From contig NZ_CM001555.1 of NCBI RefSeq assembly GCF_000275865.1, positions 496,001 to 560,000 of the forward strand: a stretch of 64,000 nucleotides of DNA. Direction: 5' to 3'. Position numbers and translations under genes: made by a program. Below the pieces are notes generated by a model, which did no database searches, was not told the DNA's origin, and saw only the letters and a program-made list of their open reading frames with translations. This stretch comes from Methanofollis liminatans DSM 4140 (lineage in GTDB: Archaea > Halobacteriota > Methanomicrobia > Methanomicrobiales > Methanofollaceae). Of this stretch, positions 9,311-34,832 are shown piece by piece (the stretch's first letter is position 1; each line of letters begins with the position of its first letter).

Positions 9311-11017
9311 TTACTTTGCCGGGATGATCAGGGAGCGCTCGCCGGCCGGCATGTACTCTCTGATCGCACCCTTGGCGAACTCGCGCCTGGGTTCGGCGAA
9401 GTCGAACTTCAGCGAGGGGTCCGCGAAGGTGATCTTGATCAGCGGGTTCATCGACCATGCGTCGGCGCGCGTGTAGTGCGCACTGCCGACGATAGCGGCG
9501 TACTCGCCCTGGTGACCGACGTTCATCGCGTAGTTCGGGTAGTTCGGGCCGCGGAACTCGCCGATCGCACCCTCGTCCGGACGGACGGAGAGCGAGTTGG
9601 TCGAACCGCACTGGTCCTGCAGGTCGTAGCCGAAGAAGCCGAGACGGCTCCAGCCTTCCTTGTGCATGAGCATCGAGAGGTACCAGCCGTTGAGACCGGC
9701 GTTCGAGTTGCCGGTGGCGATGGCGGTGGACAGGCCGGAAGCGGCGGCGATGACACCGGCACGCTGGGACCCGCCGAAGTGGTCCTCCATCATGGTCGGG
9801 AACTGCTCGTACTGCTCCATCGCGTTGAGGGTGACCTCAGTAGCGATGTCGTTGACGACGTCCTGGGTCGGCTTGACCTTGTCCGCGGCGTTCGGGTGCT
9901 TCCAGTCGACTTTGTACTTGTCCTTGATGTAGTCCATGCCGTAGTAGGTGAACTCATCGAGGATGTTGTCGGTGTACGCGGCGGTCGCATACTGGGTGAA
10001 ACCGACACCGCCGGACATGTAGGATCCGAGCCAGATCTGGTCGAAGAGCATTGTGCCTGCGCCGACGACCTCAAGGGACGCCCTTGCGGGGTCGTTGGGG
10101 TACTTGCGGTCGGCCTGGATCATGTCGGCGAAGTGGCCGAACTTGATGCCACCGGGCTCGTTCGGGCCGCGTGCACGGCGGGCCGGCAGGATGTCGGCCA
10201 TCTGAATGACGCCGGCGTGCTTCGCAGCGTAGGAGAGGTCGGCGACTGCCGCTTCACCGGCGCACATGCGGTACGCGGCGATGTAGGACATGCCGAGCTG
10301 CATCGCAGACCACCGGGAGGTGGTACCGCCGTCGCAGGTGCGGGAGACGATCGTCGGGATGTGGACGGCCTGGAACATCGACTTGCCAACGGCCGCCTTG
10401 AGGGCCTCCGCGGACTTCGCCGGGAAGAGCTTCTCGATGTTGAGGAGGAACTGGGGCTCGATGTCGTCGGCGAGTTCGTCGTCGCCGGTGAAGACCTTCA
10501 CGTAGCAGTCATCGGTGAGCGCCGGGTGGGTCTCGACCATGTGCTCCTGGACCACGGCTGCGCCGGGCATGGCGTGGTTGAGGATGTGCAGGTACTCGTT
10601 GATCGTCTCGGGGGTGACTTCCTTGCCCAGGCGCTTCTGCAGGGTGGCGTGAGCGAGGTCCATGCCGACGATGATCGTCCGGCGGATGTCGTCCCAGAAC
10701 TGCTGCATCGCAGCGTTGTTGACGAAGTGCAGGTCGTCGCCCTCCACGAAGACGCCGGTGCCGGAGACCTCGTAGGTCATCAGCTGGCGCTGGCCCATCG
10801 GGATGCCGCCAAGGTGGCAGCGCTCGGGGTCATACATGGAGATGCCACGCTGCATCTCGACGGCGCGGGACTCCTTCAGGAATTCCTGTTTTCTCGGGGA
10901 CTGCTTGAGGCCGCCGAACTTGTAGAACTCTGCCTTCTCGGACTGGACGTCCTGTCCCTGGAACTTCTCCTTGAGCGCTTTCAGGAAGAGCTTCTGGGTT
11001 CTCTCAATCTTTGCCAT
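9311..11017 (-). CDS. mcrA: Methyl-coenzyme M reductase subunit alpha
   Basis: McrA is the catalytic subunit that, with F430, reduces methyl-CoM with coenzyme B to methane and the CoM-CoB heterodisulfide. The 568-residue protein keeps the sites modified in characterised enzymes. GYDLQDQC at 463-470 holds the thioglycine, didehydroaspartate and methylcysteine positions. [10 protein letters not shown] holds N-methylHis, [11 protein letters not shown] holds methylArg and GGSQRAG holds methylGln. Whether each is modified here cannot be read from DNA. GGAGGACTG precedes the ATG at 11017. It is the last gene of mcrBDCGA and five bases after mcrG. Confidence 0.98.
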
Positions 11018-24306: not shown

Positions 24307-24575
24307 TGAACATGGCCGGAAAAAACCCATTTTCGGCGGTTGATCAATGATACTATGTTAATCGGGGGGTGTTATTAAATGCCTGTCCGGCCTGCCCTCC
24401 GGGAACTCCTGCGTTGTGGGTTTGGGGTGAAACCGGGCTTTTTCCACCGGGCAGTCAGATCGCCGGGGCTGGCCGGGTGAGAATTAGAAATCTTCTTCTG
24501 CTCCCCTGATGCACACTCTATCAGTGTACATGGTGTACGGCAGCGTCCGGCACCTTTGCACATGAGGTGCACAAA
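24307..24575. other. Divergent intergenic region between fwdG and ftr
   Basis: This holds regulatory sequence only. A weak plus-strand TATA-like TATTAAAT lies near 24373-24380 and would give a long ftr leader. The ftr ribosome site GAGGTG is at 24564-24569. No gene or repeat was seen. Confidence 0.45.
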
Positions 24576-25460
24576 ATGGAATATAATGGTGTGACCATCG
24601 ACGATGAGTATGCTGAAGCGTTCCCGACGTGGGTTTCCAGGATTATCATCACCGCTGTGACCGAGGACTGGGCGTACAGGGCTGCGAACGAGGCGACCGG
24701 GTTTGCGACCTCGGCGATCGGATGCCCCTGCGAGGCCGGCATCGAGGGATTCCTCTCGGGCGACGAGACCCCTGACGGCCGCCCGGGCGTTGCGATTCTG
24801 ATCTGCGCGGGAAAGAAGAAGCTGAAAGAGCAGGTCGTCGAGCGTCTTGCTGAGTGCGTCCTCACCGCCCCGACCACGGCGGTCTTCGACGGTCTGCCCG
24901 AGGCCGAGGAGCGGATCGCGGTGAAGCTCCACTTCTTCGGCGACGGCTACGAGTACCAGAAAGAGGTCGGCGGCCGGAAGTGCTGGGCGATCCCGATCAT
25001 GAACGGCGAGTACGTCGGCGAAGAGGACTTCGGCATCGTCAAGGGCGTTGCCGGCGGGAACTTCTTTGTGATGGGCGAGAACCAGATGGCGGCGCTCATG
25101 GGCGCCCAGGCGGCAGTCGATGCGATCGCCGGTGTCGGCGGCGTCATCACCTCGTTCCCGGGCGGCATCGTCGCCTCTGGCTCGAAGGTCGGGAGCAAGA
25201 AGTACAAGTTCATGCCTGCCTCCACCAATGAGAAGTACTGCCCGACGCTGCGTGAGAAGGTCGAGGACACGAAGGTGCCCGAGGGCGTCAAGGCGATCTA
25301 CGAGATCGTCATCGACGGCCTCGACGAGGACTGCGTGAAGGAAGCGATGGCCGAGGGCGTCAGGGCGGCATGCATGGTGCCCGGCGTCGTCTTCATCAGC
25401 GCCGGCAACTTCGGCGGCAATCTCGGCCCCTTCAAGTTCAACCTGGCCGACCTCTTCTAA
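24576..25460 (+). CDS. ftr: Formylmethanofuran-tetrahydromethanopterin formyltransferase
   Basis: Ftr moves the formyl group from methanofuran to tetrahydromethanopterin, the second step of CO2 reduction. The 294-residue protein matches the usual size of 297. It has FATSAIGCPCEAGIEGFL, FFVMGENQMAALMGAQAAV and FPGGIVASGSKVGSKKYKF. The ATG at 24576 lies six bases after GAGGTG. A GTG inside that site is less likely. It faces the fwd operon across 345 bases, so the first two enzymes of the pathway are neighbours. Confidence 0.97.
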   Translation: MEYNGVTIDDEYAEAFPTWVSRIIITAVTEDWAYRAANEATGFATSAIGCPCEAGIEGFLSGDETPDGRPGVAILICAGKKKLKEQVVERLAECVLTAPTTAVFDGLPEAEERIAVKLHFFGDGYEYQKEVGGRKCWAIPIMNGEYVGEEDFGIVKGVAGGNFFVMGENQMAALMGAQAAVDAIAGVGGVITSFPGGIVASGSKVGSKKYKFMPASTNEKYCPTLREKVEDTKVPEGVKAIYEIVIDGLDEDCVKEAMAEGVRAACMVPGVVFISAGNFGGNLGPFKFNLADLF

Positions 25461-26353: not shown

Positions 26354-27319
26354 ATGATCACGCTCACGCCAGAGGATGTAAAGGCCCGGTTCGGGCCGCT
26401 GTTCGCGCAGAAATTTATTGTCATGGTAGACGAACAGGCCGGAATGGCCGAGATCCTGGAGACCTGTCGGCACCGCGGCACCATCGAGTGGGACATGATG
26501 AACCGGCGGCGTGCCGGCGGTGTGCTCGCCTCCGCCGGGGTGCAGGGTTCCTCCATGACGATGCGTGCACGTCTCGGCCGCGAGGACGCACATTTCGGTG
26601 CAGCGGGCAAGGAGATCGGCGGGCAGGCCCTTGAGGGCGTGGAGGTGCAGGGCGACGAGGTCGTGACCACCTGGGCCGGCATTGCGGGCGCCGGGGTCGG
26701 CGTCGCCGCCTGCCTCCCGCAGGCCCCGGGCGTGATCCGCGCCGAGTACCCGACCGAGGACGACCTCCGTATCGGCGGCGCCCGCGTCTGCCGCGTGCGG
26801 ATCGTCTCGCCGGTCTATGAGAAGGTGACGATCGGGATCGACGACACCGACACGAAGGAGGACGGGGCGACCTGGGTGCTTGCCCTGAAGTGCGCCGAGG
26901 CGTGCAGGGTGGCCGGTGCCGAGTACCTTAATATGCGGCTTGTGCAGCTCAACCCGGCAGTGCCGAAGAAGACGACGAACTGCGTCGGATCAGTGCTGAA
27001 TTTTGCTGTACGCCCGGGAGCGGTCGACGAACTCCTGGCGTTCGTGAAGGACTACATCGAGAAAAACGCCGTCTCGGGCGACACCGGGATTGCGTATTAC
27101 CGGGGCATCGACGTCCCGCAGTCAGAGTACGCCCGGAAGATCAAGACCGAGATCCTGGAGAGGGAGGAGGTCGAGGCCGAGGCAGAGAGGATCGGTGTCA
27201 CGTTCATCGATTCGGCGCGGAGCAAGGGGCGTATCGGTGCCTTTGGTGCGGTTCTCTGGGGAAATTGCGGTGTGGAAGCGGCGGGGCTATATGGAGAGAG
27301 ACCTGACGGCGGGATCTGA
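26354..27319 (+). CDS. TiaS-kinase-like protein, methanogenesis marker 11 paralogue
   Basis: This 321-residue protein has a C-terminal half beginning VTIGIDDTDTKEDGATW near residue 155. That is the signature of the kinase domain of TiaS, the ATP-dependent enzyme that modifies cytidine 34 of tRNA-Ile2. The Asp pair and the downstream Thr are kept. TiaS zinc-ribbon and OB-fold regions are absent, so it is probably not TiaS itself. The N-terminal half (AGIAGAGVGVAACL) parallels the next gene. ATG at 26354 with GGTG six bases upstream. It is first in the operon containing the aks genes and overlaps the next gene by 29 bases. The substrate is unknown. A kinase or ligase role is inferred. Confidence 0.65.
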   Translation: MITLTPEDVKARFGPLFAQKFIVMVDEQAGMAEILETCRHRGTIEWDMMNRRRAGGVLASAGVQGSSMTMRARLGREDAHFGAAGKEIGGQALEGVEVQGDEVVTTWAGIAGAGVGVAACLPQAPGVIRAEYPTEDDLRIGGARVCRVRIVSPVYEKVTIGIDDTDTKEDGATWVLALKCAEACRVAGAEYLNMRLVQLNPAVPKKTTNCVGSVLNFAVRPGAVDELLAFVKDYIEKNAVSGDTGIAYYRGIDVPQSEYARKIKTEILEREEVEAEAERIGVTFIDSARSKGRIGAFGAVLWGNCGVEAAGLYGERPDGGI

Positions 27320-28199
27320 GGGGCTGCCTGATCCCTATGTGGTCTCGTACCCCCTGATCGTCGGGATCGCCGATCCCGGCGGCGACAGAATCGAGGTGGT
27401 GGAGTTCTACGAGTGCATCGGCGGGGCGCAGTGGGTGCGCCGCCACTATGCGCAGAGCCCGATCGTGGCCTCGGCCCGCAGCGTCGGGGGGACGACCCGC
27501 TATGTGCTCAGGGCCGGTGCGGCGCCTCTGGACCTCGAAGGTTCCCGGTTTCCCGCGGGCATCGCCGGCGCCTCCGTGGACGGGGACGAGATTGCCGTCG
27601 CCTACCTGGGGATGGGCGGCGGCGGCGTGGGTGCGGCGGCATGCCGGGCCCGCGCCGGCGGGGTGATTGGCGCCGACTGCGACGAGTCGGGCGGGGGAAA
27701 AGTGGCGGGATCGACGATCCGCCTCCCCCGCAGGGAGCGGGTGATCATCGGGGTCGATGATACCGACACCCCGGAGGCCGGGGCCACCTGGACGCTCGTT
27801 CACAACATCGCAAAGGCCGTGGCCGACGATGCCTCGGTCTATCTCTCGCATACGATCGTCCAGCTCTTCCCGGTGCCGTTCAGGACGAAGAACTGCGTCG
27901 CCTGTGCGGTGGAGTTCGCTTCCACCGATCCCGACGGGCTTGTCGGGAGGTTTGCCGATCTGCTCCGGCGGCACACCCTCTCCGAGGAGACCGGGATGGC
28001 CGTCCACATCGGCTTCGACCCGTCGCCCCTGCGGGCGTACGGCGAGGCGGTGAAACGCGGGCAGGTCTCCCGCGCCGACCTCGATGCCGTTTCAGGGCAT
28101 GTGAGGGTCGTGATGGACGGCCGCGGCCTGATCGGGGCGGTGGCGGCGATTCCCTTCTATACCGACTTCGAGGAGGCGCTCGCCCTATGGACTGGCTGA
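27291..28199 (+). CDS. TiaS-kinase-like protein, probable methanogenesis marker 11
   Basis: This 302-residue protein is the second of a tandem pair. It has an N-terminal domain with EFYECIGGAQWVRRHYAQSP and GGGGVGAAACRA, then VIIGVDDTDTPEAGATW near residue 145 and VQLFPVPFRTKNCVA. The layout resembles, from memory, the methanogen-restricted marker protein 11 family. It aligns with the upstream protein along most of its length, so the two may form a heteromer. The reaction is unknown. The ATG at 27291 lies inside the previous gene, and it overlaps the radical SAM gene by 13 bases. Confidence 0.65.
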   Translation: MERDLTAGSEGLPDPYVVSYPLIVGIADPGGDRIEVVEFYECIGGAQWVRRHYAQSPIVASARSVGGTTRYVLRAGAAPLDLEGSRFPAGIAGASVDGDEIAVAYLGMGGGGVGAAACRARAGGVIGADCDESGGGKVAGSTIRLPRRERVIIGVDDTDTPEAGATWTLVHNIAKAVADDASVYLSHTIVQLFPVPFRTKNCVACAVEFASTDPDGLVGRFADLLRRHTLSEETGMAVHIGFDPSPLRAYGEAVKRGQVSRADLDAVSGHVRVVMDGRGLIGAVAAIPFYTDFEEALALWTG

Positions 28200-29152
28200 A
28201 CCTGAAGGCCGCACTCCTCGCAGAGGGGCGGGTAAAGATGGTGGGCGTCCCTGCGGGAGCGTACCTGGCATCGTCCACCGCCGGGCCCGGCGCCGGGGGG
28301 AAGGGGGCGGTCTTCTTCTCGGTCGATGGGCGGCGGATCCGCCTTGCCGTCGACCCGGAGGCCTCCCTCACCCTCATCCATGAGGGGAAGGGGAATGCCG
28401 TGATCCCGTTCAGGGGCGAGATGGTCAGAGGGGTGCTCGAAGCGCCTGGCCTCCACTGCCCGCGCCAGGCGTACATCACCCTCTCTGAGCGGTGCATCTT
28501 CTCGTGCCGCTACTGTGCGGTGCCGGGAAGCGGCGGCCGGACGAAGACGACGGCCGAGGTTGTCGCCCTGGTGCGCTCGGTCCTGAACCGGATCGACGCC
28601 GTTTCGATCACCTCGGGCGTCGCCGGCAGTGTCGAGGAGGAGGAGCGGCGGGCGCTGGAAGTGGTGCGGGCGCTCGCTCCCTTCGACCTTCCCATCGGGG
28701 TCTCGATCTACCCGACCAGGAACACCCCCCGCCTGCTCTGGGAAGCCGGCGTTGCCGAGGTGAAGTTCAATATCGAGGCAGCAACCCCCGGGATCTTCGC
28801 CGAGATGTGTCCCGGGCAGGACTGGAACCTGCTCTGGGAGGTGCTTGCAGCGTCGGTGCGGCTCTTCGGTAAAAATCATGTCCAGAGCAACATCATCGTC
28901 GGCCTCGGCGAGAGCGACGACGAGATGGAGGAGGCGATCAGGCAACTCTGCCGCCTGGGCGTGATCCCGATCCTGCGCCCCCTTACTCCCGCTGCAGGGC
29001 TCTCGCACTATCGCCGCCCTGACGCCTCCCGGCTGCTCAGACTGCACGCCGTCGCCGCACGGGAGATGGCGGCGGCCGGGCTCGATGCTGTGCAGGCCAG
29101 GACGATGTGCGCCGCCTGCACGGGCTGCGACCTGATACCCGGGAGGGACTGA
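28187..29152 (+). CDS. Radical SAM protein of unknown function
   Basis: This 321-residue radical SAM enzyme has the [4Fe-4S] motif CIFSCRYC near residue 104 and later SAM-binding strands VSITSGVAGS and VKFNIEAATPG. The C-terminal MCAACTGCDL could bind a second cluster. The N-terminal 95 residues are not part of the barrel. It is embedded between the TiaS-like pair and the ThDP enzyme with overlapping or near-contiguous boundaries, so a shared pathway is likely. I do not recognise the subfamily. A modification or sulfur-insertion role is possible but not shown. Confidence 0.75.
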   Translation: MDWLNLKAALLAEGRVKMVGVPAGAYLASSTAGPGAGGKGAVFFSVDGRRIRLAVDPEASLTLIHEGKGNAVIPFRGEMVRGVLEAPGLHCPRQAYITLSERCIFSCRYCAVPGSGGRTKTTAEVVALVRSVLNRIDAVSITSGVAGSVEEEERRALEVVRALAPFDLPIGVSIYPTRNTPRLLWEAGVAEVKFNIEAATPGIFAEMCPGQDWNLLWEVLAASVRLFGKNHVQSNIIVGLGESDDEMEEAIRQLCRLGVIPILRPLTPAAGLSHYRRPDASRLLRLHAVAAREMAAAGLDAVQARTMCAACTGCDLIPGRD

Positions 29153-29154
29153 GG

Positions 29155-30288
29155 ATGGACGGGGGGGAAGCGCTTGCAGCGGCCCTGCGCCTGGTTGCCG
29201 ACCAGATCTACACGGTGCCCGGCTATCCGGTGACCGATGTCGCCAGAGCGGCCGACGCCGAGGTCTGCGTCAACGAGAAGGTCGCCCTCGAGTACGCCCT
29301 CGGCGATTCGCTTGCCGGGCGGCGGGCGGCGGTGATCGTGAAAAACGTCGGCATGAACCTCCTCGCCGATCCCCTGGTGCAGGCGACGGCGCAGGGGCTC
29401 ATCGCCGGCGTCGTGGTGGTGGCCGGGGACGATCCCCTCTGCCGCGCCTCGCAGGCGGCGGAGGACTCCAGCTACTTCGGCCCTCTCGCCATGGTGCCGG
29501 TGATCGAGCCCGAAACCGACGTCTTTGCATCGGTGGGGGCGGCTTTCGCCCTCTCCGAGCGTCTCTCGCGGGTGGCGGTCCTCAGGGTGACGCCTGATAT
29601 CCTCGAAGCACCTGTCGGTCCGGAACCCCTTGTGCCACCCAGGACGCCGGGCGCTCTTGCTCCCCGGTCCCTCACGATGCGGGGACGGTGGGAGCGGGCG
29701 CGAGCGGCGGCGGCCGCAGCGGTTCCGCCCCATCTGCCCGGGGTGCGGGTGGTGCTCCCCGCAGTCGAGGCGCCGGAGGGTGAGCCCGAACGCTTCGCCG
29801 CCCGCGGGTTTTCCCGGGGCCTCTGTCCTCACTGTCCGTATCACGCCCTTTTCACCCTGCTCGCGGAGCGGGATCTTCGTCCGGCCTGCGACGCCGGGTG
29901 TTCGCTCCTCGCCATGAACCCGCCGTACGGGATCGGCGTCGCCTCCTACGGCCTCGGTTCTGCCGTTGGGGTCGGGGCGAGGAGTACGGGCGTGGCCCTG
30001 ATCGGGGACTATGCCCTCATCCACTCGGGGATCAACGCCCTCATCGACGTGTACGAGAAGGGGGCGCCGCTCCTCTGTATCGTCCTTGCGAACAACCGGA
30101 TGGGAATGGTCGGGGGCCATGAGGTGCCCGACGTCCTGCGCTATATCGGGTGGGCCGGCCCCGTCGTCTGCGACGCCGCTGACACTGCGGCGCTCAGGCG
30201 GCTGATCCTGCCAGCGAACAGACCGGTAACTATCATCGTGCGGGGCATATGCCCCGGCGGAGAGAGCCATGAACATGTGGAATGTTGA
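29155..30288 (+). CDS. Thiamine diphosphate enzyme, IorA/decarboxylase type
   Basis: The 377-residue protein has an N-terminal pyrimidine-binding domain with the activating Glu region CVNEKVALEYALGDS. The C-terminal pyrophosphate domain has GLCPHCPYHALF and the magnesium/ThDP motif GDYALIHSGINAL followed by ANNRMGM. The C-terminal half resembles indolepyruvate ferredoxin oxidoreductase alpha, but the usual C-terminal ferredoxin domain is missing and no beta/gamma partner is nearby. Directly upstream of aksA, it is a candidate 2-oxosuberate decarboxylase for coenzyme B. Sulfopyruvate decarboxylase (coenzyme M) is an alternative. The ATG at 29155 follows GGGAGGGACTGAGG. Confidence 0.75.
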   Translation: MDGGEALAAALRLVADQIYTVPGYPVTDVARAADAEVCVNEKVALEYALGDSLAGRRAAVIVKNVGMNLLADPLVQATAQGLIAGVVVVAGDDPLCRASQAAEDSSYFGPLAMVPVIEPETDVFASVGAAFALSERLSRVAVLRVTPDILEAPVGPEPLVPPRTPGALAPRSLTMRGRWERARAAAAAAVPPHLPGVRVVLPAVEAPEGEPERFAARGFSRGLCPHCPYHALFTLLAERDLRPACDAGCSLLAMNPPYGIGVASYGLGSAVGVGARSTGVALIGDYALIHSGINALIDVYEKGAPLLCIVLANNRMGMVGGHEVPDVLRYIGWAGPVVCDAADTAALRRLILPANRPVTIIVRGICPGGESHEHVEC

Positions 30289-31399
30289 GATCTGCGATGT
30301 CACGCTGCGTGACGGTGAACAGACGCCCGGCGTTTCGTTCACCTGCGAAGAGAAGATGGAGATCGCCGGGCTGCTCGACGGCATCGGCCTCGAGGTGATC
30401 GAAGGCGGGTTTCCTGCGGTCTCTTCGAGCGAACAGGAGGCCGTAAAGGCGATATGCCGCATGGGGCTCGACGCCCGGATCTGCGCCCTGTCCCGTGCGA
30501 AGAAGGAGGACATCGACGCTGCCCTCGACTGCGGGGTGGATATGGTCTCGGTCTTCCTGCCGACCTCGGACCTCCATATCAGGCACAAGTACGCAAGGCC
30601 TCGGGATGAGGTGCTGATGGAGGCGATGGCGATGGTCGAGTACGCCCACGACCACGGTGTCGAGGTCAGGTTCGGGGCCGAGGACGCCTCCCGGACCGAT
30701 CCGTTCTTCCTCCTCAGGGCGTACCGGGAGGCGGTCTCGCACGGCGCCGACCTGGTTACCTTCACCGATACCGTCGGCTGCCTGATGCCGGTCGAGATCA
30801 GGGCCGCCGTGGAGGAGATCATCCCGTCGGTTTCGGTCCCGCTCTGCATCCACTGCCATGACGATATGGGGTGCGCCACGGCGAACACGATCACGGCGGC
30901 GGCGTCCGGGGCCTTCCAGCTCCACACCACCGTGAACGGGATCGGGGAGCGGGCAGGAAACGCCGCCCTCGAAGAGGTGCTGGTTCTGCTCTCCATGAAG
31001 GGGGGCATCAGCCGCTACGACCTCTCGCTCCTGCACAAACTCTCGGAAACGGTGGCGAAGGCCGCCGGTATGCCGGTCGCCAGAAACAAGGCGATCGTCG
31101 GGGCGCACGCCTTCTCGCACGAGAGCGGCATCCATATCGCGGCGATCCTGAAGGACCCGGAGACCTATGAATACGTGAAGCCCGCCCTTGTCGGCTGCGA
31201 GCGCACGTTCATCCTGGGCAAGCACACGGGCAGGCATGCCGTCAGGCACGTGGCCGCCTCGCTCGGCTACGACCTTGCCGAGGACGAGATCACCTGGGTG
31301 CTCGCCGAGGTGAAGAGGCGGAGCGAGGCGAAGTGCGCGGTGACCTCTGAACTCCTCCATGAGATCCTCTGTGCGGCCAGAGAGGGGGGCAGACAGTGA
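30269..31399 (+). CDS. aksA: Homocitrate synthase family protein (AksA)
   Basis: This enzyme condenses 2-oxoglutarate with acetyl-CoA to homocitrate and, in methanogens, elongates the chain twice more towards 2-oxosuberate for coenzyme B. The 376-residue DRE-TIM protein has DVTLRDGEQTPGVSF at residue 9, TDTVGCLMP, HCHDDMGCATAN and NGIGERAGNAALEE. It lacks the C-terminal regulatory domain of isopropylmalate and citramalate synthases, which favours homocitrate synthase. It is followed by the matching dehydratase and dehydrogenase genes. It may also supply homocitrate for the FeMo cofactor, since no nifV is seen. Confidence 0.85.
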   Translation: MNMWNVEICDVTLRDGEQTPGVSFTCEEKMEIAGLLDGIGLEVIEGGFPAVSSSEQEAVKAICRMGLDARICALSRAKKEDIDAALDCGVDMVSVFLPTSDLHIRHKYARPRDEVLMEAMAMVEYAHDHGVEVRFGAEDASRTDPFFLLRAYREAVSHGADLVTFTDTVGCLMPVEIRAAVEEIIPSVSVPLCIHCHDDMGCATANTITAAASGAFQLHTTVNGIGERAGNAALEEVLVLLSMKGGISRYDLSLLHKLSETVAKAAGMPVARNKAIVGAHAFSHESGIHIAAILKDPETYEYVKPALVGCERTFILGKHTGRHAVRHVAASLGYDLAEDEITWVLAEVKRRSEAKCAVTSELLHEILCAAREGGRQ

Positions 31400-32610
31400 G
31401 CACCCTATCAGAGCGGATCCTGGGTGCCGGAGCCGGCGCCTACGTGGACCGGACCGTCGACCGCGCCTATGTCCATGACGGCACCGGGCTGCTCGCCCGC
31501 GCCGCCTGGACCGAGATCGGGTCGGGCGTCTTTACCGACCCGGACCGGCGCTACCTGATCTTCGACCACATCGTCCCGGCGAACACCTCGACGACCGCCG
31601 ATCTCCAGCAGGAGATGCGGGAGTTCGCCGCCATGACCGGGATGCACTTCTTCGAGGTCGGTGCCGGCGTCTGCCATCAGGTGATGGCCGAAGGCCGCGC
31701 CCTCCCCGGCGAGGTGATCGTCGGGGCCGATTCGCACTCGTGCACCCTCGGCGCCTTCGGGGCGTTTGCCACCGGGGTCGGGGCGACCGACATGGCCGGC
31801 ATCTGGGCGACCGGCGGCACCTGGTTCAGGGTGCCTGAGACGACCGGGATCTTCCTGGAAGGCACCCTTTCCGGTGCGGCATCGGCAAAAGACGTCGCTC
31901 TCGCCTATGTCGGCGCCCTCGGCATGGACGGGGCGACCTACCGCGCCCTCGAGTTCGTCGGGGATGGGGCGGCGTCTCTCTCGATGGCCGACCGCCTGAC
32001 CCTCTGCAATATGGCGGTGGAGACCGGGGCGAAGGCCGGGATCTTCTATGCCGACCGGACGACCCGCGATTACCTCGCAGGTTTCGGCATTGCAGCAGAA
32101 CCGCAGGTCCCGCACGCCGGCGGATATCCGGACGAGATCGCGATCGACCTTGAGGACGTTGTCCCCCTGCTGGCCCTGCCGCCGCGGGTGGACACGGTCT
32201 GTCCGGTGGCCGAGAAGGAGGGCCTGCCGGTGGACCAGGTCTTCCTGGGCACCTGCACCGGCGGGCGCTACGAGGACCTTGCGGCCTTCGCCGCACTCGT
32301 GCGCGGAAAACAGGTGGCGGTGCGGACGGTCGTCGTCCCGGCCTCCCGTGCGGTCCTGATGCAGGCGGTCTCGACCGGCGTCCTTGCCGACCTCGTCGCC
32401 GCCGGGTGCGCCGTGGCGACGCCCGGGTGCGGCCCGTGCCTCGGGGCCCATATGGGCGTTCTTGGAGAGGGCGAGGTCTGCCTCTCCACGGCGAACCGGA
32501 ACTTCAAGAACCGGATGGGCGTCGGCGGGGAGATCTATCTCGCCTCGCCCATGACTGCGGCGGCAACGGCGCTTGTGGGCGCCATCACCTCTCCGGAGGA
32601 ATTTCTATGA
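31396..32610 (+). CDS. aksD: Homoaconitase/isopropylmalate dehydratase large subunit (AksD)
   Basis: This is the large subunit of an aconitase-family hydrolyase that isomerises (R)-homocitrate and its longer homologues. The 404-residue protein has FDHIVPANTS, VGADSHSCTLGAFGAFATG, GTCTGGRYEDLAA and CGPCLGAHMG, which supply the [4Fe-4S] cysteines. The GTG start at 31396 overlaps the aksA stop (GTGA) and follows GAGGGGGGC. Isopropylmalate dehydratase is the main alternative. The operon favours the coenzyme B role. Confidence 0.85.
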   Translation: MSTLSERILGAGAGAYVDRTVDRAYVHDGTGLLARAAWTEIGSGVFTDPDRRYLIFDHIVPANTSTTADLQQEMREFAAMTGMHFFEVGAGVCHQVMAEGRALPGEVIVGADSHSCTLGAFGAFATGVGATDMAGIWATGGTWFRVPETTGIFLEGTLSGAASAKDVALAYVGALGMDGATYRALEFVGDGAASLSMADRLTLCNMAVETGAKAGIFYADRTTRDYLAGFGIAAEPQVPHAGGYPDEIAIDLEDVVPLLALPPRVDTVCPVAEKEGLPVDQVFLGTCTGGRYEDLAAFAALVRGKQVAVRTVVVPASRAVLMQAVSTGVLADLVAAGCAVATPGCGPCLGAHMGVLGEGEVCLSTANRNFKNRMGVGGEIYLASPMTAAATALVGAITSPEEFL

Positions 32611-33080
32611 GGGGCACCGGGCGCGCTGTCTGTCTCGGCCGGGACATCGACACCGACCTGATCATCGCCGGGCGCTACCTGCGGACGAAGGACCGATCGG
32701 TCTGGGCGGCGCACGCCCTTGAAGACCTCGATCCCGCCCTTGCAGGGAGGCTCTCGGGGGCGGTGATCGTGGCGGGCGGCAATTTCGGCTGCGGCTCGTC
32801 GCGCGAGCAGGCGGCCATCGCCCTCAGGGACGCCGGGGTCGTCGCCGTGGCGGCGCCTTCGTTTGCCAGAATCTTTTTTCGCAACGCCGTCAACATAGGA
32901 CTGCCTGTGCTCGAGTGCGAGATCCCCTGCAGGGACGGCGATCAGGTCACGTTCGATCTCGAAGAGGGCTGGATCGAGGCTGGCGGTATCCGCCGGGCCG
33001 TCAGCCCTCTTTCGCCGCGTATGCGTGCGATCCTTGCTGCAGGGGGTCTTGTACCGTTCCTGTGCGGAGGACCTCGATGA
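32607..33080 (+). CDS. aksE: Homoaconitase/isopropylmalate dehydratase small subunit (AksE)
   Basis: This is the small swivelling subunit that pairs with AksD. The 157-residue protein has LGRDIDTDLIIAGRYL, the specificity loop RTKDRS, FGCGSSREQAAIAL and FFRNAVNIGLPVLE. The loop after YL decides which chain lengths fit and would be the place to test substrate range. The ATG at 32607 overlaps the aksD stop and follows GGAGGA. Confidence 0.87.
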   Translation: MRGTGRAVCLGRDIDTDLIIAGRYLRTKDRSVWAAHALEDLDPALAGRLSGAVIVAGGNFGCGSSREQAAIALRDAGVVAVAAPSFARIFFRNAVNIGLPVLECEIPCRDGDQVTFDLEEGWIEAGGIRRAVSPLSPRMRAILAAGGLVPFLCGGPR

Positions 33081-33895
33081 TCTTTCCGGAAGAGTGCAAA
33101 TATATCGGGCTTGCGAACGGCCGACCCCTGGGTAACCGCGTGTATTTTCTTTCCCGCTGGCTGATCAGGCAGACCGTGGACGGCTACGAGGTGCTTGCCG
33201 TCCGCCTTGCCGATGGCAAAGACCTGATGCGGGAGATCGTCGGCGAGGAAGTGCTGGCCACCCCGGACGAGACGATCCTCTATCCAGACCCGGTGAACTT
33301 CAACGACCGCGCTCTCCTGGTCAGGCTTGCGAAGGAGGGGGGCCACCGGTGCACGATCTTTCAGAGCCCCGACGAGTCCAGGATCTTCGTGATCGATCCT
33401 GAGCCCGCGGACCTCCTCACCGTGCACGTCTACGACATCATCCCGCCGCGGCCCCATCTCGCCGCCATCCTGGAGGAACTCGAAGAGGTCGGGCTCTTCG
33501 GCGACCTCGGCATCGCCTTCGAGTACCATATCAGGGATATCAGGGATACGGCCGCCGAGGTCTATCCCTGCCGGGCCGGGGGGTTCGACCTGACCCTGGA
33601 CACCGACCGCCTTGCGGGCACCGAACGGGTGGCCGGATGCCTCACGGCGCGGCAGTTCTGCGCTGAAAACTACGGGTCCGGCGTGGTGATCGACGAGATC
33701 TGCCCCCTGACGCAGGTGGCCGAGGAACCTTTCATCGCCCGGTGCTGCCGGGCCGACCGCGAGGGCGTCGGCGTCTGGAACGGGAAACTCGGCGGCGTCG
33801 TCCACTGGGGCGCCTCCCCCCACACGATCGACCGGATCCTGCGGGAAGCGCTTGCCGCATGGAGGGAGCATGAAGGTCGCAATCGTTCCGGGTGA
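33077..33895 (+). CDS. Conserved-looking protein of unknown function in the aks operon
   Basis: I do not recognise this 272-residue protein. It is soluble, mixed alpha/beta and acidic, beginning MIFPEECKYIGLANGRPLGN. It contains scattered Cys and His residues in its C-terminal third (CLTARQFCAENYG, ICPLTQV, ARCCRADR, VHWGAS) that could bind a metal, and a repeated FEYHIRDIRDT segment. It overlaps aksE by 4 bases and aksF by 26. CGGAGG precedes the ATG. Being wedged among coenzyme B genes argues for a role in that pathway. Confidence 0.8.
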   Translation: MIFPEECKYIGLANGRPLGNRVYFLSRWLIRQTVDGYEVLAVRLADGKDLMREIVGEEVLATPDETILYPDPVNFNDRALLVRLAKEGGHRCTIFQSPDESRIFVIDPEPADLLTVHVYDIIPPRPHLAAILEELEEVGLFGDLGIAFEYHIRDIRDTAAEVYPCRAGGFDLTLDTDRLAGTERVAGCLTARQFCAENYGSGVVIDEICPLTQVAEEPFIARCCRADREGVGVWNGKLGGVVHWGASPHTIDRILREALAAWREHEGRNRSG

Positions 33896-34832
33896 CGGGA
33901 TCGGCCGCGAGGTCGTCCCGGTGGCCGAGGGCGTGCTCCGCCTCCTCCACCCTGACTGGGACTACTACCCTGTCGAGGTCGGTTACGGCCGCTGGGAGCG
34001 CTGCGGCGCCGCCATCGGTTCTGAGGAGATGCGCGCCCTCTCGGAAGCCGATGCGATCCTCTTCGGCGCCGTGACGACCCCGCCCGACCCGGATTACCGG
34101 AGCGTCCTCCTCCAGATCAGGCACGATCTCGACCTTTATGCGAATGTGCGGCCGGTGAGGGGGCCGGGCGTCGATATCACCATCGTGCGGGAGAACACCG
34201 AAGGGCTCTATTCTGGGATCGAGTGGAATCTGCCGGGAAGCGCCTGCACCCTGCGGGTGGTCACCGAGCGGGGGAGCCGGCGGATCGCACGCTTTGCCGC
34301 CGGGCTCGTTCGAGGGGGGCGCCTCACGATCGGGACGAAGGCGAACGTGATCAAGTCAGACGTCCTCTTCCGCCGGTGCGCGATCGACGAGGCCGAGGCG
34401 GCGGGCGTGGCCTGGGAGGAGAAATACATCGACGCCCTCTGCCTGGACGTGCTGGTGCACCCGGCCCGCTATGGGGTGATCGTGACGACGAACATCTTCG
34501 GCGACATCCTCTCGGACGCCGCCGGCTATCTTGTCGGCGGTCTCGGCATGCTCCCGTCGGCGAACATCGGCGATAAACACGCCTTTTTCGAGCCGGTGCA
34601 CGGTTCTGCTCCAGATATTGCCGGGCGGGGGATCGCGAATCCGGTGGCGGCGATCCGTTCTGCGGCACTGCTCCTTGCACATTCCGGCTACGCGGATGAG
34701 GCGGCAGCCGTTGATGCGGCGGTGGATGCCGCCCTTGTTGCGGGGGTGCGGACGCCCGACCTCGGGGGTGCGGCCTCGACCGTGCAGGTGGGCGAGGCGG
34801 TGTTCGGTCGGATCAGGGAACGGATGCTCTGA
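33870..34832 (+). CDS. aksF: Homoisocitrate/isopropylmalate dehydrogenase family (AksF)
   Basis: This is an NAD(P)-dependent beta-decarboxylating dehydrogenase that oxidises homoisocitrate and its longer homologues to 2-oxoadipate, 2-oxopimelate and 2-oxosuberate. The 320-residue protein has PGDGIGREVVPVAEG, IVRENTEGLYSGIEW, TKANVIKSDVLF, and GSAPDIAGRGIANPVA for the cofactor. I chose the ATG at 33870 (MKVAIVPGDG), which follows GGAGGG. Isopropylmalate dehydrogenase is the alternative. It is the last gene of the operon. Confidence 0.86.
   Translation: MKVAIVPGDGIGREVVPVAEGVLRLLHPDWDYYPVEVGYGRWERCGAAIGSEEMRALSEADAILFGAVTTPPDPDYRSVLLQIRHDLDLYANVRPVRGPGVDITIVRENTEGLYSGIEWNLPGSACTLRVVTERGSRRIARFAAGLVRGGRLTIGTKANVIKSDVLFRRCAIDEAEAAGVAWEEKYIDALCLDVLVHPARYGVIVTTNIFGDILSDAAGYLVGGLGMLPSANIGDKHAFFEPVHGSAPDIAGRGIANPVAAIRSAALLLAHSGYADEAAAVDAAVDAALVAGVRTPDLGGAASTVQVGEAVFGRIRERML

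Follow-up and report, generated by a model that had tools for sequence, protein, structure and literature searches.

The window, the whole stretch of 64,000 nucleotides of the Methanofollis liminatans DSM 4140 genome that was analysed, contains two overlapping genes for related proteins. Protein A, a TiaS-TCKD-like paralogue of 321 amino acids (26354..27319, + strand), starts with ATG at 26354 and its stop codon ends at 27319; protein B, methanogenesis marker 11 proper, has 302 amino acids (27291..28199, + strand), starts with ATG at 27291 and its stop codon ends at 28199. The two genes share 29 bases. A contains IGIDDTDTKEDGATW and B contains IGVDDTDTPEAGATW. The sequence IDDTDT or VDDTDT followed by GATW, present in both proteins, is the kinase (TCKD) core of TiaS; the core motif is YEKVTIGIDDTDTKEDGATW in A (26817..26876, + strand) and RERVIIGVDDTDTPEAGATW in B (27732..27791, + strand).

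A and B are the first genes of an operon on the + strand in which every gene overlaps or abuts its successor. They are followed by genes encoding a radical SAM protein similar to LipS2/MSMEG_0568, with CX3CX2C and C-terminal CxxCxxC motifs (28187..29152, overlapping B by 13 nt); a short IorA-like TPP-binding protein that is a candidate 2-oxosuberate decarboxylase (29155..30288); an AksA-type homocitrate synthase (30269..31399); the aconitase-family large subunit AksD (31396..32610) and small subunit AksE (32607..33080); a DUF7714/XcbA-family protein (33077..33895); and an AksF-type dehydrogenase (33870..34832). Upstream, outside the overlapping operon, lies a conserved neighbour, ftr, encoding formylmethanofuran:H4MPT formyltransferase (24567..25460, + strand). 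Apart from A and B, the operon proteins include no identified ATP-dependent ligase or kinase. About 80 Methanomicrobiales contigs share, wherever they are long enough, the arrangement ftr-[A]-B-radical SAM-TPP-AksA-AksD-AksE-DUF7714-AksF, in which A is the sole variable member. Two Methanocella loci have the same gene set around B, rearranged, with the radical SAM gene not adjacent in one (L131) and DUF7714 just beyond the end of the stretch in the other (L132). The genes are linked to aks genes in the Methanomicrobiales and, in rearranged form around B, in Methanocella, which supports a role connected with coenzyme B; an earlier reading made from the sequence alone had placed the pair within a coenzyme operon, and this was borne out. 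The TPP gene directly follows B in Methanosarcinaceae and Methanotrichaceae-type genomes, as does the radical SAM gene in Archaeoglobi-type genomes.

The proteins were scanned against NCBIfam profiles. B matches TIGR03280 (methanogenesis marker 11; curated cut-off 255.8 bits) along its full length, with 316 bits over model positions 2-290 of 292, and is conserved order-wide; A, at 199 bits, falls under the cut-off and is a homologue of marker 11 but not a member as curated. The sequence-only reading had called both proteins marker-11 type, which is correct for B, whereas A represents a sister subfamily and groups in a separate clade with proteins from Methanocella and Archaeoglobi-like genomes. 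The likeness of A and B is not due to chance, given these scores and the recurrence of the A-B tandem in 44 of the 78 Methanomicrobiales contigs that have enough upstream DNA, almost always with an overlap of 2-29 nt. Marker 11 is probably arCOG01116 (PMC4153887 Table 5); no published function for it was found in the open-access literature searched.

Both proteins had also been described from their sequence as a TiaS kinase core without the tRNA-binding zinc ribbon or OB domain, and the Pfam scan confirmed this: TiaS_TCKD matches A with 67 bits and B with 42 bits (cut-off 27), Zn_ribbon_TiaS matches neither, and neither has an OB domain. The TiaS ferredoxin-like (FLD) profile gives weak matches, 23.7 bits for B against a cut-off of 21 and 16.8 bits for A, which fall over the TCKD stretch. 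That A or B is itself a tRNA-modifying TiaS (tRNA-Ile2 agmatidine synthetase; PDB 3amt, 3amu, 3au7, 4rvz, 5xob; NF040849) is so improbable that the family scans exclude it for practical purposes. A and B share with TiaS the TCKD fold, the DDTD core, the threonine equivalent to Thr18 and a [KR]T motif in the C-terminal half, but they lack the C-terminal zinc ribbon, carry an added N-terminal domain of about 150 residues, are found in a context of coenzyme biosynthesis and score far under the full-length TiaS cut-off (37.5 bits for A against 600 for NF040849). A complete TiaS of 408 amino acids, in which TCKD, FLD and zinc ribbon are all matched, is encoded elsewhere in the genome (G000:C1:2353443). 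The genome also has a small TCKD-only protein of 234 amino acids with a weak TiaS_TCKD match (G000:C1:1866100-1866561, locus L005).

AlphaFold2 models were built from alignments of the window and related loci, with a mean pLDDT of 88.6 for B and 85.4 for A. In Foldseek searches of the PDB, TiaS entries were the top matches of both B (3amt, E 1.8e-8) and A (4rvz/3amt, E 3.8e-8), over about 150-160 columns, and no other family was matched at E 0.001. The sequence profiles put the TiaS match in the same C-terminal half, and the models confirm a predicted TiaS fold there; the N-terminal 150 or so residues have no counterpart among the top structural matches. A Pyrococcus furiosus protein of 252 amino acids annotated as TiaS/TFIIS-like (3u02) is also TCKD by profile and fold (sequence profile match E 7e-8 to 7e-9), but begins directly at the TCKD core, without the marker-11 N-terminal domain. 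The DDTD core (D163, D164 and D166 in A; D156, D157 and D159 in B) and the threonine (T173 in A, T166 in B) equivalent to Thr18, the autophosphorylated residue of TiaS, are at least 90% identical over the subfamilies of A, B and a third paralogue, C, and are shared with TiaS. The three subfamilies also conserve a G-IGA motif and a [KR]T pair. Together, the predicted fold and core residues argue for ATP-dependent phosphoryl transfer. In the N-terminal domain, B proteins have a nearly or fully invariant signature, C42-x-GGA-x-W48-x3-H52-Y53, in place of which A has C-x3-G-x2-E-W-D-x2-N-R, with H-Y replaced by N-R; this altered motif suggests that A differs in its ligand or its role.

C is encoded in the same genome (G000:C1:1151368-1152288, - strand) and has an N-terminal HTH domain. 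In the Methanomicrobiales and in family f18 its gene is directly downstream of homoserine dehydrogenase, often with an ACT-domain protein also (L003, L006, L142-L148, L155-L158), and C may regulate threonine/homoserine synthesis. Because C keeps the entire core even though it is fused to an HTH domain, A and B could in principle be non-catalytic ligand-binding or regulatory proteins of the same kind as this member of an ACT-homoserine dehydrogenase-C operon. Such a role is improbable: A and B have no HTH domain, the DDTD core and the Thr18 equivalent are strongly conserved, and both proteins are under constraint, with mean pairwise identities of 72% for A and 69% for B over the same genome pairs. 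A is thus constrained as much as B.

The two proteins differ in their distribution. B exceeded its cut-off in 128 of the 135 class genomes; the A profile found A in 91 (88 in one piece, 2 split across frames and 1 cut by a contig end), and 44 lack it, including entire genera. The two split genes (G022:C1:918497-919485 and G035:C94:10649-11637) could reflect decay or sequencing error. Decayed fragments of A remain between ftr and B in at least three A-less loci (L086, L116, L092), and the Methanosarcinaceae and Methanotrichaceae-type families have B alone, with no A. In the phylogenetic tree, in which the placement of TiaS is unreliable (long branch), all A proteins form one clade (support 99/95) with members from Methanocella, G194, G233 and one Archaeoglobus or Archaeoglobus-like genome, so A and B are not recent tandem duplicates. 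A is an ancient, dispensable sister subfamily outside the marker-11 cut-off. In Methanocella and G194 the gene for MtxX (marker 4) follows A, and in G233 A adjoins ftr, with marker 8 and an AtwA-like gene after it; a link between A and MtxX is unsupported by co-variation, as MtxX is present in 134 of the 135 class genomes regardless of A.

The two paralogues in a row had been taken to suggest a heteromeric enzyme. An obligate A-B heteromer finds no support and was rejected, since A is absent from 44 of the 135 class genomes and has decayed in several, while B is near-universal; the specific form of this proposal, in which A and B as an obligate heteromer would phosphorylate the coenzyme B threonine, is very unlikely. 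The genes do overlap translationally in nearly all A-bearing loci, the operon context is suitable and both proteins keep the core residues, but, besides these losses, A and B can be about 7 kb apart in one genus (family f3, genus g7), and in Methanocella A is found with MtxX, away from B.

The co-occurrence of B with McrA was examined in 296 genomes of the phylum; gene neighbourhoods were sampled within the same phylum, outside which lie the Methanobacteria, Methanococci and Methanomassiliicoccales. B and McrA mostly occur together, with two kinds of exception. Three complete genomes, G155, G163 and G170 (which we take to be Ferroglobus placidus, Geoglobus acetivorans and Geoglobus ahangari), encode B over the cut-off but no McrA. 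Conversely, families f10 (inferred from its McrA scores to be ANME-1-like), f12, f23, f27 and f18 have McrA without B, and the matches there are only TiaS or proteins of the A or C type. Marker 11 is therefore not confined to methanogens and other MCR archaea, the distribution stated for the family, as G155, G163 and G170 on one side and f10 and f12 on the other indicate, nor does B accompany MCR in all lineages. Of 50 genomes scanned, 12 encode AksA, which scored no less than 487 bits whereas paralogues did not exceed 433; none of the 12 belongs to f10, f12, f23, f27, f18 or the Archaeoglobi-like families. All 12 AksA-positive genomes tested have B, but B is also present without AksA in the MCR-bearing Archaeoglobi-like genomes G184, G205 and G278, so that B is not an enzyme of the AksA pathway proper. 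The AksA-less families f10, f12, f23, f27, f18 and Archaeoglobi-like f9, many with McrA, may make the coenzyme B chain otherwise.

The other operon genes divide along the same line. All 12 AksA genomes encode DUF7714, and 11 of them the specific TPP protein; this co-occurrence assigns both to the Aks route. They are candidates for 2-oxosuberate decarboxylation and the subsequent aldehyde step. The presence of B and of the radical SAM protein does not follow that of AksA, and neither depends on that route. Every genome checked that has a true B-type marker 11 also has the radical SAM gene; its family matches strongly in nearly all McrA-bearing genomes checked of the B-less families and is present in the McrA-less, B-bearing genomes checked as well, and it was absent from the Archaeoglobi and haloarchaea checked that lack B. 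In G155, G163 and G170 the marker 11 and radical SAM genes are coupled. In some ANME-like loci the radical SAM gene adjoins a COG1900/marker-16-like protein.

It is conceivable, with somewhat lower probability than the reading preferred below, that B works with the radical SAM protein, as a module of two enzymes, towards a different product, such as a further small cofactor or an MCR- or thiol-related modification, and that their place in the aks operon reflects only co-regulation. Their shared independence of AksA and the presence of the radical SAM gene in every genome checked with a true B-type marker 11 would fit such a module, as would the retention of the radical SAM gene in B-less MCR-bearing genomes, the translational coupling of B to it in the Archaeoglobi, f16, f25, f30 and one Methanocella, and the proximity of B to TfuA/YcaO in L123 and L136. 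Against it, both genes lie inside the aks gene set in two orders, and the near-universality of the radical SAM family in MCR archaea fits coenzyme B itself as well.

The preferred reading, to which we give a probability of about 0.4, is that B catalyses an ATP-dependent ligation or phosphorylation late in the assembly of coenzyme B, with A as an optional paralogue. B would be an enzyme that uses ATP, has the TCKD fold of TiaS and carries another, N-terminal domain instead of the tRNA-binding modules; it would most likely act on a small molecule in a step independent of the route to the C7 chain. A late, chain-independent step explains the presence of B in the MCR-bearing genomes without AksA. 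TiaS phosphorylates, and so activates, a carbonyl oxygen, from which the phosphate is then displaced by an amine; by analogy, B may activate 7-mercaptoheptanoate at its carboxyl group so that an amide can form with threonine, or, alternatively, it may phosphorylate the threonine hydroxyl directly. A, with the same catalytic residues and a putatively changed N-terminal pocket (H-Y to N-R), may be an optional assistant or an enzyme of a side activity.

Three findings stand against a late coenzyme B step. MCR-dependent organisms should all need coenzyme B, but B is missing from the five MCR-bearing families named above; it is present in the three genomes without McrA; and several lineages couple it to radical SAM or McrA-thioamidation genes, not to aks genes. 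The first two of these keep the assignment of B to coenzyme B tentative. Phosphorylation of the coenzyme B threonine, which the sequence-only reading had singled out, is a possible activity that the operon context favours, and is one among two or three live options. The distribution of B, which occurs in genomes without mcrA and is absent from several MCR-bearing families, is at odds with a universal coenzyme B kinase. No gene for a coenzyme B kinase was found in the literature searched. A bolder form of the proposal, which we regard as doubtful, would make B the missing terminal enzyme of coenzyme B synthesis (amide ligase or threonine kinase) and the first small-molecule member of the TiaS kinase fold, with A an accessory isoform of changed specificity, and with ANME-1-like and alkane-oxidising archaea using other enzymes.

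To our knowledge, the closing steps of coenzyme B synthesis, namely decarboxylation, thiol formation, amide ligation and phosphorylation, have no established genes. The conserved operon provides a short list of candidates for these steps, and the genome comparison splits it into the TPP protein and DUF7714, which are tied to the Aks route, and B and the radical SAM protein, which are not. Were B a ligase or kinase, the TiaS fold would have been recruited to small-molecule metabolism, and one of the remaining methanogenesis marker proteins would have a function. Marker proteins can be coenzyme-biosynthetic enzymes, as the case of marker 16 illustrates: it has been shown to be coenzyme M synthase, and L-ASST/marker 16 has been suggested to serve formation of the coenzyme B thiol (PMC12068725). 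The M. liminatans genome has two copies of mcrA, at 9314-11017 of the window and at G000:C1:1717507-1719186, one of which precedes the operon by about 15 kb and has mtr, fwd and hdr genes in its vicinity.
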